This document shows, piece after piece, positions 1,662-14,151 of a stretch of DNA of 64,000 bases; positions within the stretch are counted from its first letter, which is position 1, and each line of letters opens with the position of its first letter. The translations under genes were made by a program, and so were the position numbers. Under the pieces are notes generated by a model that did no database searches, was not told where the DNA came from, and saw only the letters and a list, made by a program, of their open reading frames with translations. Where the stretch lies: positions 124,001 through 188,000 of the forward strand of contig NZ_LWLB01000033.1 in the NCBI RefSeq assembly GCF_001905145.1, written 5' to 3'. This DNA is from Nocardiopsis sp. TSRI0078 (GTDB lineage: Bacteria; Actinomycetota; Actinomycetes; Streptosporangiales; Streptosporangiaceae).

Positions 1662-2565
1662 TCGCGCCGACGCGCAGTTGCGGGGACAGTCCCTCGCCGA
1701 CCTGTTGACGGTGCTGGACCTGGAGCGGATCGAGGACAACATCTTCCGGGGCAGCAGCCCCGCGGAGGGGCCGCAGCGGGTCTTCGGCGGACAGGTCGCC
1801 GGCCAGGCGCTGGTCGCGGCCGGGCGCACCGTCCCGGTCGAGCGCTACGTGCACTCCCTGCACGCGTACTTCATCCGCCCGGGCGACCCGTCGGTGCCGA
1901 TCGTCTACGAGGTGGATCGGGTCCGCGACGGGCGCTCGTTCACCACCCGCCGGGTGGTGGCCATCCAGCACGGCAAGCCGATCTTCACCCTGTCGGCCTC
2001 CTTCCACAAGGAGGAGCCGGGACTGGACCACCAGATCCCGATGCCCGACGCTCCCCCGCCCGAGGACCTGCCGAGCACGCGCGAACGCCTGCAGGACGCG
2101 TTCGGGAGGGTGCCCGGCTTCGTGCGCTGGCACCCCATCGAGCTGCGCCCGGTGGGCCCGATGTCCTACGAGGCCGAGCGCGACCCGCGCCTGCGCACCG
2201 AGAACAACCCGGTGTGGCTGAAGGTGGACGGCAAGCTGCCCGACGACCGGCTCACCCATGTGTGCCTGATGACCTACGCCTCGGACATGACCCTGCTGGA
2301 CACCGTGCTGCTGCGGCACGGCCGGTCCTTCGCGGGCATCTCCATGGCCAGCCTCGACCACGCGATGTGGTTCCACCGGCCCTTCCGCGCCGACGAGTGG
2401 CTGCTGTACGCGCAGGAGGCCCCGTCCGCGCAGGGCGCGCGCGGGCTGGCGCGCGGCCTGGTGTACACGCGCGACGGAGAGCTCGTGTGCTCGGTCGTGC
2501 AGGAGGGGCTGATCCGCGTGGTGGACGCGGAGGGGTGGTCCGACGCCCTGCCCGGTCCGTCCTAG
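1654..2565 (+). CDS. tesB: Acyl-CoA thioesterase II (TesB family)
   Basis: 303-residue double-hotdog acyl-CoA thioesterase, hydrolysing acyl-CoA to fatty acid and CoA in the cytoplasm. The N-terminal hotdog carries FGGQVAGQALVAA and LHAYFIRPGD; the C-terminal hotdog carries SLDHAMWFH (catalytic Asp position), PSAQGARG (Ser/Thr position) and VVQEGLIR (catalytic Gln position). Length is close to the usual 285-300. The ATG at 1654 was chosen because a GAGGAAG Shine-Dalgarno lies just upstream and homologous sequence starts there; the frame is open further upstream but only over uvrD2. Overlap with the uvrD2 stop suggests translational coupling. A long terminator hairpin follows directly. Confidence 0.9.
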   Translation: MSDRADAQLRGQSLADLLTVLDLERIEDNIFRGSSPAEGPQRVFGGQVAGQALVAAGRTVPVERYVHSLHAYFIRPGDPSVPIVYEVDRVRDGRSFTTRRVVAIQHGKPIFTLSASFHKEEPGLDHQIPMPDAPPPEDLPSTRERLQDAFGRVPGFVRWHPIELRPVGPMSYEAERDPRLRTENNPVWLKVDGKLPDDRLTHVCLMTYASDMTLLDTVLLRHGRSFAGISMASLDHAMWFHRPFRADEWLLYAQEAPSAQGARGLARGLVYTRDGELVCSVVQEGLIRVVDAEGWSDALPGPS

Positions 2566-2578
2566 CGGACGCGCTTTG

Positions 2579-2637
2579 CCCACCACGTACGAAGGCCCTG
2601 GTCACCGACGGTGACCAGGGCCTTCGTACGTGGTGGG
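2579..2637 (+). terminator. Long perfect hairpin terminator after tesB
   Basis: Arms 2579-2607 and 2609-2637 are perfect 29-base reverse complements around a single central base, so the folded form is one very long stem. There is no U-tract, as is common for actinomycete terminators. It separates the uvrD2-tesB unit from the whiB7 promoter. Confidence 0.85.
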
Positions 2638-2741
2638 GCCGACCGGCCGGTCCGGGCGGGGCGCGGACGCCGGGCGGTAACGCTCCCGAGGGCCGTCCCA
2701 TTCCCGTGAATCCGTGGCCGGATGCGGACGTTTTCGCAGGT

Positions 2742-2780
2742 CAAAAATAGGTTGCTCTCTTTGTGGGCCAGTCATAGTGT
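2742..2780 (+). promoter_or_regulatory. whiB7 promoter with AT-rich WhiB7-type element
   Basis: TTGCTC (2752-2757), a 17-nt spacer and TAGTGT (2775-2780) form a vegetative-sigma-like promoter. Immediately upstream and overlapping the -35 is the A-rich stretch CAAAAATAGGTTG (2742-2754), a rare AT patch in this GC-rich sequence. WhiB7 of mycobacteria and streptomycetes activates its own promoter by binding AT-rich DNA next to the -35 through its AT-hook. Position and sequence fit autoregulation here; binding itself is inferred. Transcription would start near 2787, giving a leader of roughly 640 nt. Confidence 0.7.
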
Positions 2781-2857
2781 GTACACCGTCGCAATGACCG
2801 CTCCCGGCGAGGGTGAAAGATTCCCGTCGCCCGACCGTGAAGGAGGTGCCCGATCTG

Positions 2858-3220
2858 ATGATCAGCATCACGGAAACCATCGGCTTCATCGCTGGCTCTG
2901 CCATGCCGTCGCGTCAGCTGTCCCTGACCGCTGCTTCGGGCACCGCCCTGGGCGGTCGCGTGCGCGTCTTCGCCGCGTTCGGCGAGTGCACCACCACGGG
3001 TACCGGCGTCGGCGACGGCGGCACCACCGGTGGGTTCGGAAGCCTCGGCCTCCGTCTCCCGCTGCTGGGGTCCCGGTTCGAGCAGTCCGGCCACGGCAGT
3101 GGTGTGCCCGCCGAGGCCCAGCCGGCCCTGGATTGGGCCAAGCCCATGGCGGAGCACGCAGAAGCCACCCAGCGCCGCTACGGCGTACCGGGGGAGTGTC
3201 CACGGAGGATTCCGGCCTAG
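2858..3220 (+). CDS. 120-residue leader ORF upstream of whiB7
   Basis: ATG at 2858 is preceded by a near-perfect Shine-Dalgarno (AAGGAGGTG, 2840-2848) with a 9-nt spacer, and codons show the G/C third-position bias of real genes. The product is rich in Gly, Thr and Ser in the middle (about residues 45-65) and resembles nothing I recognise. It lies between the whiB7-type promoter and a terminator-like hairpin, the position of the regulatory upstream ORF in known whiB7 leaders, where antibiotic-slowed ribosomes relieve attenuation. I infer a regulatory role for its translation; an independent function of the peptide cannot be excluded. It is much longer than the roughly dozen-codon ORF I recall for mycobacteria. 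Confidence 0.7.
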   Translation: MISITETIGFIAGSAMPSRQLSLTAASGTALGGRVRVFAAFGECTTTGTGVGDGGTTGGFGSLGLRLPLLGSRFEQSGHGSGVPAEAQPALDWAKPMAEHAEATQRRYGVPGECPRRIPA

Positions 3221-3249
3221 AGCAGGACAGGCCGAGAGTTTCGACCGTG

Positions 3250-3285
3250 GCCGCGGACCCCGACACAGGGGCCGCGGCTTTCTTT
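3250..3285 (+). terminator. Attenuator-like intrinsic terminator in the whiB7 leader
   Basis: Arms 3250-3261 and 3268-3278 pair over 11 bp with one bulged A (3257) and a six-base loop, followed by TTTCTTT (3279-3285). It sits 29 nt after the leader ORF stop and 140 nt before whiB7. A second, nested structure upstream can pair 3200-3205 with 3245-3250 and 3213-3218 with 3229-3234, spanning the leader ORF stop codon. A 7-base match (3067-3073 with 3255-3261) could form a longer-range anti-terminator. The choice among these is inference. Confidence 0.7.
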
Positions 3286-3425
3286 GTATCTCCGTCCGCT
3301 TCCTCCTCCCCCAGGGATGAGGAGAGGACGGCGGCATCGCAAGTCCAGGTCCCTCACCGGATCGGTTCCGGTGACCCATCACCGACCGCGTTGTACGAAA
3401 CGATCAAAGATCTTGGAGGGCACCG

Positions 3426-3704
3426 ATGCTTGCGTCGGTCCTGGAAACGCCCTGGCTGTCCGACACCGAGGTTCCCTGCCGCCTGGAGCCCGACCTGTTC
3501 TTCGCGGAGGCTCCCGCCGACGTCGAGGCGGCCAAGGCCGTCTGCGGCGCGTGCCCTGTACGGGAGCAGTGCCTGGCCGACGCGCTGGAGCGCCGGGAGC
3601 CGTGGGGCGTCTGGGGCGGGCAGCTGCTCGTCTCCGGGCAGGTCGTGGCGCGCAAGCGCCCCAGGGGCCGCCCCCGGAAGAACCCCGCTCCGGTCGCGGC
3701 CTGA
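3426..3704 (+). CDS. whiB7: WhiB7 (WblC) Fe-S transcriptional activator with AT-hook
   Basis: 92-residue WhiB-family protein. Four cysteines at 18, 40, 43 and 49 (C-X21-C-X2-C-X5-C) bind a [4Fe-4S] cluster. EPWGVWGG (58-65) is the WhiB7 form of the sigma-binding turn. The C-terminus has an AT-hook, RGRPRK (80-85), which contacts AT-rich DNA in the minor groove. In Mycobacterium and Streptomyces WhiB7 partners the primary sigma factor and switches on ribosome protection, efflux and drug-modifying genes. A Shine-Dalgarno-like GGAGGG (3415-3420) precedes the ATG. The gene stands behind its own promoter, leader ORF and attenuator. Confidence 0.95.
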   Translation: MLASVLETPWLSDTEVPCRLEPDLFFAEAPADVEAAKAVCGACPVREQCLADALERREPWGVWGGQLLVSGQVVARKRPRGRPRKNPAPVAA

Positions 3705-3760
3705 CAGAGCCCGTACAGAAGACCTCCGAAACCACACATATCCCAAAGGACCGAAGACTG

Positions 3761-3922
3761 ATGACGATGTTGGAACTCATGCGCGTGGTCGAGCAGATGG
3801 ACGTCGAGACCCGGCACGTGCAGGACAGAAAGCTCACCGCCCGGCAGCTGCGCGCCCGCCAGCGCGAGGAGCGCCGGATGGAACTGGCACTCATGGAAAC
3901 CGCGTGGTCACGTCTGTGTTGA
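3761..3922 (+). CDS. Small hypothetical protein downstream of whiB7 (53 aa)
   Basis: ATG at 3761 has an AAAGGA ribosome site 10 nt upstream. The product is short, highly charged and predicted helical (repeated Arg/Glu between residues 20 and 45, no Gly or Pro), ending in Trp-Ser-Arg-Leu-Cys. It lies 56 nt after whiB7 and before a strong terminator, so it should be co-transcribed with whiB7 and induced with it. I do not recognise a family. Small size makes the call less certain than its neighbours. Confidence 0.55.
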   Translation: MTMLELMRVVEQMDVETRHVQDRKLTARQLRARQREERRMELALMETAWSRLC

Positions 3923-3977
3923 CGTCGCGCCGCGCGGTGGAGTGACGGGACGCCCGGCGTCCTGAACCGGTCCGGGG

Positions 3978-4021
3978 CCGGACGGGGACCCCTCCAGGAG
4001 GGTAACCGTCCGGTCTTTTTT
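3978..4021 (+). terminator. Intrinsic terminator of the whiB7 transcript
   Basis: Outer stem 3978-3985 with 4006-4013 (8 bp), an inner complementary stretch, then TC and six T (4014-4021). It is one of the few textbook U-tract terminators in the window. Confidence 0.85.
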
Positions 4022-4227
4022 GTGTATCCGAATGATAACCAGGGGGCTTCGGAAACCCTCGTGGTGGCGCGTCACACAGCCGAAAAACGGCGCTGGTCAG
4101 AGCGGAATGTGCTACGGGGCCGGATTTTTCGGTCGCGTTGCGAGAATCGGAGATCCGGTGAAACCGGTGACATAACCGAACAAGGCACACCTGTGCGAGA
4201 GCGCCTCGCTCGGCTACCGTAAACTTC

Positions 4228-4800
4228 GTGCCCTCGAACACCAAAGTCGAGGTACGACGCAGTCCTCGTCGCCGACGCACGGTGTCGGCCTACAGGGACG
4301 GGGACACCACGGTCGTCCTCGTGCCCGCCACGTTCTCCCGCGCTGAGGAAAAGCGCTGGGTGGGCCGCATGCTGCAGCGGCTGGAGGCCCGCGAGGGGCG
4401 CCGCCACCCCGGTGACCGCGAACTCCACGAGCGCGCGCTGGAACTGGCCCGGCGCTACCTGGGCGGCACCGAACTCCCCGACAGCGTGCGCTGGGTGGAC
4501 AACCAGAACTCCCGCTGGGGGTCGTGCACCCCCGACACCCGCACGATCCGCATCTCCCGCCGCGTCGCCGGAATGCCCTCCTGGGTGGTCGACTACGTCC
4601 TCATCCACGAACTCGCGCACCTGTTCATCCCGCACCACGGCCGGGAGTTCTGGGACCTGGTGCGCCGCTATCCCAAGGCCGAGCGCGCCCGCGGCTACCT
4701 GGAGGGGTTCAGCGCCGCATCGCGCGGGGAGGCCTGCGACCCGGCCGCCGACGAGGACGACGAGGAGCTCGACACGGCCGAGGTCGCCTTCGAGGAGTGA
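4228..4800 (+). CDS. YgjP-like (DUF45) zinc metallopeptidase
   Basis: 190-residue protein with HELAH (about residues 129-133) followed by HHGREFWDLV, the zinc-binding HExxH plus distal His of the YgjP/SprT-like DUF45 group. NQNSRWGSC just upstream is also typical. No signal peptide; predicted cytoplasmic. The C-terminal 20 residues are acidic. GTG at 4228 was chosen because TACCGT ends 7 nt upstream with no Shine-Dalgarno, a leaderless arrangement. Substrate unknown. Confidence 0.8.
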   Translation: MPSNTKVEVRRSPRRRRTVSAYRDGDTTVVLVPATFSRAEEKRWVGRMLQRLEAREGRRHPGDRELHERALELARRYLGGTELPDSVRWVDNQNSRWGSCTPDTRTIRISRRVAGMPSWVVDYVLIHELAHLFIPHHGREFWDLVRRYPKAERARGYLEGFSAASRGEACDPAADEDDEELDTAEVAFEE

Positions 4801-13753: not shown

Positions 13754-13830
13754 CGCGGGGTGGAGCAGTTCGGTAGCTCGCTGGGCTCATAACCCAGAGG
13801 TCGCAGGTTCAAATCCTGTCCCCGCTACCA
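13754..13830 (+). tRNA. Initiator tRNA-fMet (CAT), copy 1
   Basis: 74-nt body with encoded CCA (13828-13830). Anticodon CAT sits in the loop CTCATAA, closed by a stem with three consecutive G-C pairs (CTGGG/CCCAG), a mark of initiator tRNAs. Position 1 (C) faces T at 72, so the top of the acceptor stem is unpaired, the other initiator hallmark. The T-arm GCAGGTTCAAATCCTGT is intact. Confidence 0.97.
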
Positions 13831-14074: not shown

Positions 14075-14151
14075 CGCGGGGTGGAGCAGTTCGGTAGCTC
14101 GCTGGGCTCATAACCCAGAGGTCGCAGGTTCAAATCCTGTCCCCGCTACCA
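14075..14151 (+). tRNA. Initiator tRNA-fMet (CAT), copy 2
   Basis: Identical across all 77 bases, including CCA, to copy 1 at 13754. It has its own promoter and terminator, so the pair are independent transcription units and not a processed dimer. Confidence 0.97.

Follow-up and report, generated by a model that had tools for sequence, protein, structure and literature searches.

WhiB7 governs intrinsic resistance to many drugs that target the ribosome. In Mycobacterium and Streptomyces, the whiB7/wblC gene is reportedly controlled by an attenuator with an upstream open reading frame (uORF), said to be described in work by Burian from 2012 and 2018 and by Lee, Lee and Roe from 2022. In the passages of published papers that concern the gene, uORF translation controls a terminator before whiB7/wblC (PMC11550727, PMC13393426, PMC7157823); the corresponding part of one further paper puts this control forward as a proposal (PMC4128351). 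Regulation of this type, responding to several drug classes and to amino-acid starvation, is described in passages of PMC11550727, PMC12121999 and PMC13393426. Antibiotic stalling of ribosomes within the whiB7 uORF is stated as not yet tested in the relevant passage of PMC12121999. Here, we describe the whiB7 locus found in a 64,000 nucleotide stretch of contig NZ_LWLB01000033.1 of Nocardiopsis sp. TSRI0078. We refer to this whole stretch as the window.

The locus is a complete whiB7 attenuation cassette, with a promoter, leader open reading frame (ORF), intrinsic terminator, whiB7, small ORF and operon terminator. Judged against the passages cited above, it is a further whiB7/wblC uORF attenuator, the mechanism of which is already published. 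The Nocardiopsis leader is not treated in those passages of the literature on whiB7 and Nocardiopsis that were covered. A preliminary description of the window had proposed such a cassette. Locus anatomy, class-wide conservation and covariation support that proposal, and the parts lie where they had been placed. Very probably, the locus is a ribosome-mediated transcription attenuator of whiB7 in which the leader ORF acts as a peptide-blind monitor of translation. Since the frame is kept open and the peptide is not kept, the sequences suggest that the leader senses any slowing of the ribosome, and no single codon or drug. The parts of the locus are as follows.

2743–2748, forward strand: AAAAAT box of WhiB7/WblC type, for autoregulation, 3 nt upstream of the −35 element; the A-tract is common to 30 of 30 leaders.
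2752–2780, forward strand: promoter, placed by eye, with −35 TTGCTC (2752–2757), 17 bases and −10 TAGTGT (2775–2780).
2840–2847, forward strand: Shine-Dalgarno sequence AAGGAGGT of the leader ORF.
2858–3220, forward strand: leader ORF (the uORF), 120 codons, from ATG 2858 to the TAG stop codon at 3218–3220.
3172–3186, forward strand: P1 hairpin, 3172–3177 with 3181–3186, within the end of the leader ORF.
3189–3205, forward strand: antiterminator 5′ strand, a GGGGG..GTG.CCACGG stretch that encodes the end of the leader peptide.
3207–3241, forward strand: P2, the inner hairpin of the antiterminator, with the leader stop codon at the top of its 5′ side.
3245–3262, forward strand: antiterminator 3′ strand, which includes the terminator 5′ arm.
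3249–3287, forward strand: intrinsic terminator, GGCCGCGG.CCCC / GGGGCCGCGGCT followed by a U-tract; the stem is 3249–3279 and the U-tract runs to ~3287.
3426–3704, forward strand: whiB7, 92 amino acids, with Cys18, Cys40, Cys43 and Cys49, GVWGG at 61–65 and an AT-hook at 78–85.
3761–3922, forward strand: small ORF, 53 amino acids, Arg/Glu-rich, ending AWSRLC, probably co-transcribed with whiB7.
3974–4021, forward strand: terminator closing the whiB7 operon (folding free energy, dG, −31.3; 4 of 200 shuffles as good).

For comparison, 80 whiB7-like loci were returned. The 29 from Nocardiopsaceae were used in full and, with the window, give 30 leaders. Among the other 51 loci, 19 with a terminator or R1 match entered a length survey and 32 went unused, including 7 weak R1 matches. 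Of 20 further regions that we fetched, 9 duplicated members of the 30 and the remaining 11 were retained. Every one of the 30 leaders has an ATG and a Shine-Dalgarno sequence of GGAGGT type, and their spacing from the promoter box is nearly constant (A-tract 111–122 nt before the ATG). The ORFs span 74–125 codons and stop 189–209 nt before whiB7. All 11 further genomes have the same kind of ORF, of 74–111 codons and with a Shine-Dalgarno sequence, and 8 have the A-tract.

No in-frame stop codon occurs in the 3,253 codons of the 30 leaders, compared with 87 and 50 stops in the other forward frames. Thirty of 30 leaders are free of stops in the ORF frame, against 0 and 2 in the other two. Insertions and deletions were counted in codon-blind alignments of 13 pairs, some of which share sequences. 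Multiples of three made up 30 of 69 in the ORF body and 1 of 43 in non-coding parts of the leader (Fisher P 6e-7). The lack of stops and the multiples of three together indicate that the leader frame is under selection. They also bear on the idea that GC-rich DNA left the ORF open by accident and that only the RNA hairpins matter. Dinucleotide shuffles keep the ORF open in 34% of cases for the window leader and in 21% on average for the 30, so a single leader is open by chance about one time in five, and a 120-codon ORF alone is no proof of translation. Furthermore, only 4 stops occur in the in-register antisense frame (48 and 75 in the other antisense frames), so codon periodicity explains part of the openness. 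Even so, an accident would hardly leave 30 of 30 leaders open in the same frame, with nearly constant spacing between start signals and promoter box, and we consider it very unlikely.

The peptide tells a different story from the frame. We define the body as the leader ORF minus its last 22 codons. In eight close pairs (740 codons), body non-synonymous (dN) and synonymous (dS) divergences were 0.176 and 0.204. The ratio, 0.86, is not different from 1 (P 0.24), and differences fall almost evenly at codon positions 1, 2 and 3 (122, 125 and 115). In the same pairs, the last 22 codons, with 30 differences, have a dN/dS of 0.38 and whiB7 one of 0.12; for the small ORF it is 0.29 (seven of the eight pairs). 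Six other groups gave body values of 0.80, 0.82, 0.89, 0.91, 1.18 and 1.22, the last two from one pair each. Pairs for dN/dS and for indels were picked for closeness, and the indel and six-group pairs share sequences and so are not independent. Codon use in the bodies is relaxed, with 19% of codons ending in A or T compared with 4.8% in coding sequences (CDS). Hence, the preliminary description's proposal to compare the leader across relatives gave a split answer: the reading frame is conserved and the body codons are not. These patterns suggest a frame held open with no amino-acid message.

Could the leader ORF instead encode a functional small protein, one that acts as a regulator or companion of WhiB7? 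The good Shine-Dalgarno sequence, the 120 codons and a third-position GC content of 0.81 in the bodies, higher than at the other positions, would fit. However, the body evolves near neutrality while the small ORF downstream and whiB7 do not, and leader length varies from 74 to 125 codons within Nocardiopsaceae. At E 0.001, neither the leader peptide nor the 53-residue product of the small ORF matches Pfam or NCBIfam; the leader peptide also has no PHROGs match at 0.1. A protein function for the leader thus seems scarcely credible to us.

A more serious rival is a codon- or peptide-specific attenuator, in which control codons, or a nascent arrest peptide of the erm type, would stall the ribosome at one place. 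Composition gives it some footing. As the preliminary description remarked, the peptide is rich in Gly, Thr and Ser; each is ~1.6-fold over CDS in the 30 pooled bodies, and Tyr, Asp and Pro are depleted. Bodies of the Mycobacterium-like genus g21 average 37% Ala (5 leaders). Alanine starvation is reported to induce whiB7 in mycobacteria (work attributed to Poulton, 2024). For Nocardiopsaceae we rejected Ala sensing of the mycobacterial kind, Ala being 0.85-fold there. The macrolide motif R/K-x-R/K occurs 35 times against 21.8 expected in 46 genus-level bodies, and 26 against 16.9 in the 30 Nocardiopsaceae bodies. This motif was rejected as a specific signal; ordinary CDS also carry an excess (144 against 113.4), and the excess is gone in 12 diverse Nocardiopsaceae (8 against 7.3). 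Peptides compared by eye contain no run of control codons common to Nocardiopsaceae outside the tail. Likewise, no conserved short arrest sequence of erm type was found in the leader body of Nocardiopsaceae or the six other groups. Body dN/dS values of 0.80–1.22 in seven groups argue against a place-specific signal. The last 22 codons are conserved but coincide with RNA helices, so peptide and RNA constraints are inseparable there. We consider this rival improbable, although less so than the two preceding ones. The search for drug-sensing codons implied by the preliminary description was therefore probably the wrong question. The body is nearly unconstrained, and probably no codons in particular sense the drug. 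A kept frame with a drifting peptide yields a simple prediction by which a generic sensor can be told from a codon-specific one. This evolutionary argument was not met in the literature passages covered; Lee, Lee and Roe 2022 and Poulton 2024 lie outside that scope.

One feature of the peptide is suggestive of avoidance. Pro-Pro occurs 3 times in the 46 genus-level bodies, against 15.4 ± 3.6 expected, and 0 of 3000 shuffles were as low. The CDS control (136 pieces from the window genes, hence one genome only) gave 59 against 62.8. Pro-Pro is absent from the 30 Nocardiopsaceae bodies, where 4.3 were expected (P 0.012), and from a diverse set of 12 of them, where 1.2 were expected (P 0.29). We grade the avoidance as suggestive only because C-tracts are also avoided out of frame (CCNCC z −1.5 and −3.4 in leaders) and in CDS, and because the control is a single genome. 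Outside Nocardiopsaceae, bodies have 3 Pro-Pro against 21 expected. Within the last 8 residues, Pro-Pro is present in 34 of 73 leader peptides outside that family, often as WSPPV or WGPPV before the stop. A slow Pro-Pro end could hold the ribosome where termination is enforced, and the RNA helix there may be sufficient reason for the sequence.

We turn now to the RNA. The terminator at 3249–3287 has a dG of −27.0, and 0 of 200 shuffles fold as well. A simple terminator scan listed neither of the forward strand terminators, probably because its rules forbid a bulge or interior loop. When the transcript was folded up to the start of the terminator 3′ arm, P1 and a long antiterminator were obtained. 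The antiterminator helices are 3189–3193/3258–3262, 3196–3198/3252–3254 and 3200–3205/3245–3250, with P2 inside. The fold energy is −50.3, compared with −38.5 ± 3.45 in shuffles (0 of 200 as good). Thus, the predicted pairing that breaks the terminator is 3189–3205 with 3245–3262, its 5′ strand being the end of the leader ORF. The preliminary description had considered that this pairing could not be told by eye; folding in silico located it. Because the antiterminator includes the terminator 5′ arm, the two folds are mutually exclusive. An antiterminator is predicted in 30 of 30 leaders, sequestering at least 5 of the 8 bases of the terminator 5′ arm.

Covariation is consistent with this structure. 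In alignment A1 (30 sequences, MAFFT, unfitted), 91.2% of cells are paired, compared with 37–46% when slid. Double-sided changes occur in 9 of 32 pairs against 4.8 in column shuffles, of which 1 in 500 was as high. Alignment A4 has 41 sequences (40 distinct rows; L183 and L035 have the same sequence across the 127-base model). It gave 91.7% paired cells against 39–47% when slid, and 13 of 32 pairs with double-sided changes against 6.8 (0 of 500 as high). Within A4, P1 (helix 1) has 94.2% of cells paired and double-sided changes in 3 of 6 pairs; P2 (helix 4) has 83.7% and 6 of 12. Individual compensatory changes are evident. CCACGG:CCGTGG becomes CCATGG:CCATGG in L026, with a G-U intermediate in L191, and CCACTG:CAGTGG is found in L033, L036 and L187. 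In L190, a G-C pair of the outer helix becomes A-U. The terminator itself is almost invariant (no change at all in 9 of 11 pairs) and hence gives no covariation evidence.

The RNA element at the end of the leader was found in 40 of 40 genus genomes, a set that includes the window's own and several sources of the model. There is a single match in the window genome, and one match in 39 of the 40. A second match in genome G546 (29 bits) was rejected as a false positive, lying inside an unrelated coding gene. A draw of 150 genomes from the family gave 99 matches at E 0.01, 33 of them at 89 bits or more and 66 at 54 or fewer; the model is no family-wide detector. None of the 4227 Rfam models matches the leader at gathering score. 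Below threshold, Rfam gave two matches in 2700–4050 (E 0.69 and 0.85), neither of them on the attenuator.

We modelled the effect of ribosome position by walking a ribosome through the last 31 codons of each ORF. The leading edge was set 16 nt from the P-site and upstream RNA was left out. Sequestration was called strong when at least 5 of the 8 bases of the terminator 5′ arm were paired at −8 kcal/mol or better. In all 30 leaders, strong sequestration is unbroken until 10–15 codons before the last codon, and then falls below the cut-off. Once the ribosome sits on the stop codon, terminator formation is predicted, again in 30 of 30. The permissive zone of the window leader is 107 of its 120 codons. 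In silico, therefore, the antiterminator excludes the terminator and is blocked by a ribosome finishing the uORF, with mixed results under a simpler mask.

Several results count against a peptide-blind, ribosome-mediated switch. In many leaders the 5′ arm continues to pair more weakly, below the cut-off, with RNA close by, and L021, L024, L026, L033 and L040 return above the cut-off at isolated positions. With the simpler mask, in which pairing is forbidden only under the ribosome, the 5′ arm is still sequestered in 21 of 30 leaders. The clean result requires the assumption that RNA before the ribosome does not pair with RNA after it. We regard this stricter assumption as realistic, because a ribosome with few free bases to one side leaves little room for a helix to close around it. 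The energy of the antiterminator is only modestly better than with shuffled ORF tails (7 of 100 as good for the window, 11% on average for the 30 leaders). A4 was fitted to the RNA model and is biased towards it. Energetically, the terminator wins over the antiterminator once the transcript is complete; the switch must therefore be a kinetic one. Finally, a dN/dS near 1 is compatible with selection on overall composition, such as Gly/Ser/Thr enrichment and GC-richer third positions.

Taking these points into account, we favour the following sequence of events for the generic translation monitor. In a healthy cell, the ribosome would trail RNA polymerase to the stop codon at 3218–3220. There it would block pairing of 3189–3205, so that the terminator forms and transcription ends before whiB7. 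A stall or lag anywhere in approximately the first 107 codons, caused by a drug or by a shortage of amino acids, would free 3189–3205. Once made, 3245–3262 would pair with the freed strand, the terminator 5′ arm would be lost and RNA polymerase would read through. WhiB7 would then activate its own promoter at the AAAAAT box. ORF length would set the number of stall sites and the detectable lag; a stop-free frame would matter and the amino acids would not. The predicted antiterminator names the bases to mutate in a reporter.

Leader length was surveyed in 106 actinobacterial leaders, 87 from the genome set (including the window's own) and the 19 further loci. Starts were chosen by Shine-Dalgarno score, and the search for stops spanned 45 nt upstream to 5 nt downstream of the terminator start, so the lengths are estimates; L045 and L145 are doubtful. 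A terminator was found in 98 leaders, all with a leader ORF, which stops 5–40 nt before it (median 23). All 8 misses fall in family f4, which probably comprises mycobacteria and their kin. This leaves Mycobacterium-like leaders under-represented, with six counted (42–86 codons). Leaders of 60–130 codons are usual among the actinobacteria examined. The 30 Nocardiopsaceae leaders have a median of 116 codons, and 8 reach at least 120. Outside the family (73 leaders) the median is 84 and the range 42–198, the longest being Frankia leader L044; 22 have at least 100 codons and 5 at least 120. Family f16 (probably Streptomycetaceae; ten genomes of 5.8–9.2 Mb, probably Streptomyces) has 90–123. The 120-codon leader is thus long but within the actinobacterial range. 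The preliminary description called it unusually long, which holds against Mycobacterium-like leaders and fails against actinobacteria as a whole. Whether the whiB7 leader ORF is a peptide-blind translation ruler across actinobacteria, kept stop-free by selection for ~60–200 codons, nearly lacking the spontaneous stall motif Pro-Pro and tuned in length rather than in sequence, is to our minds an evenly balanced proposition. If it were so, a slowdown of any cause at any codon would flip the switch on, and length would set sensitivity through the lag of the ribosome behind RNA polymerase.

The promoter is of WhiB7 type in its conserved box, as the preliminary description had it; its hexamers are less convincing. 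The −10 TAGTGT fits TANNNT, but both hexamers match the σ70 consensus at only 3 of 6 positions. A σ70 consensus scan of 2400–4300 found no promoter. Given the weak hexamers and the empty scan, the promoter call rests on the conserved box. In the part of PMC7157823 that describes it, the WblC box is GAAAWY, 3 nt before the −35 element; the box here has the same position and differs at the first base (A for G). Transcription is expected to start near 2787. A second ATG (MTAPG...) occurs at 2794, a few bases beyond. The counterpart ORFs in relatives vary in frame and length; this ATG could therefore have arisen by chance or could open a leaderless mini-ORF.

The gene downstream has the four cysteines, GVWGG and AT-hook (RPRGRPRK) of a whiB7 ortholog. 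Its product matches Pfam Whib (E 8.9e-17) and is 100% identical to N. sinuspersici WhiB7. In Nocardiopsis eucommiae (L014, 2501 onward), WhiB7 carries an unrelated tail, RPVAVPARTPRP, in place of the AT-hook. The frame there extends to 492 nt in a frameshift-like manner, either a real loss or a sequencing error.

The small ORF reported in the preliminary description is present; its co-transcription with whiB7 is only probable. In tblastn searches (E up to 1) it has matches in 28 of the 30 Nocardiopsaceae loci, including the window, with none in L033 or L034 and a weak one in L036 (E 0.001). It is present in 9 of 197 class-wide genomes, all within four genera of the same family. Against PHROGs, the product weakly matches a Nun-like termination factor (E 0.0073), a match that may reflect composition only. 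The 53-residue protein is a candidate small partner of WhiB7 or of the attenuator.

The unit is flanked by a tesB-like thioesterase gene on one side and a YgjP-like peptidase gene on the other. Between the tesB-like gene and the whiB7 promoter, at 2579–2637, a long and near-perfect inverted repeat was seen by eye, with arms of ~27 bases, a 5-base loop and no T-run. Elsewhere in the window, two tRNA genes with equal Rfam scores (13754–13827 and 14075–14148) lie ~250 bases apart. The genome is 6.1 Mb in 37 contigs, and its nearest named relatives are Nocardiopsis species.

Other leaders share parts of this logic. For the uORF toiL of Escherichia coli topAI, the passages on that system propose sensing of many drugs through stalling anywhere in the uORF, as we propose here. 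They also describe toiL as unmasking the topAI ribosome site, with Rho-dependent termination and no intrinsic terminator (PMC12121999); the two systems are unrelated. In amino-acid leader attenuators such as ilvB1 of M. tuberculosis, ribosome position likewise picks terminator or antiterminator. As described in part of PMC13236596, however, such leaders have a short uORF and control codons for one pathway, whereas the locus has no conserved control codons. Closest are the whiB7/wblC attenuators of Mycobacterium and Streptomyces, which, in the passages cited at the outset, have the same WhiB7 box promoter, uORF, Rho-independent terminator, predicted antiterminator and autoregulation. The present leader differs from the Mycobacterium-like leaders in its length and in not being alanine-rich, and the locus differs from the known attenuators in having a conserved 53-residue ORF after whiB7. 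Its terminator is of the GGCCGCGG-like kind found in most leaders of the class that were examined.

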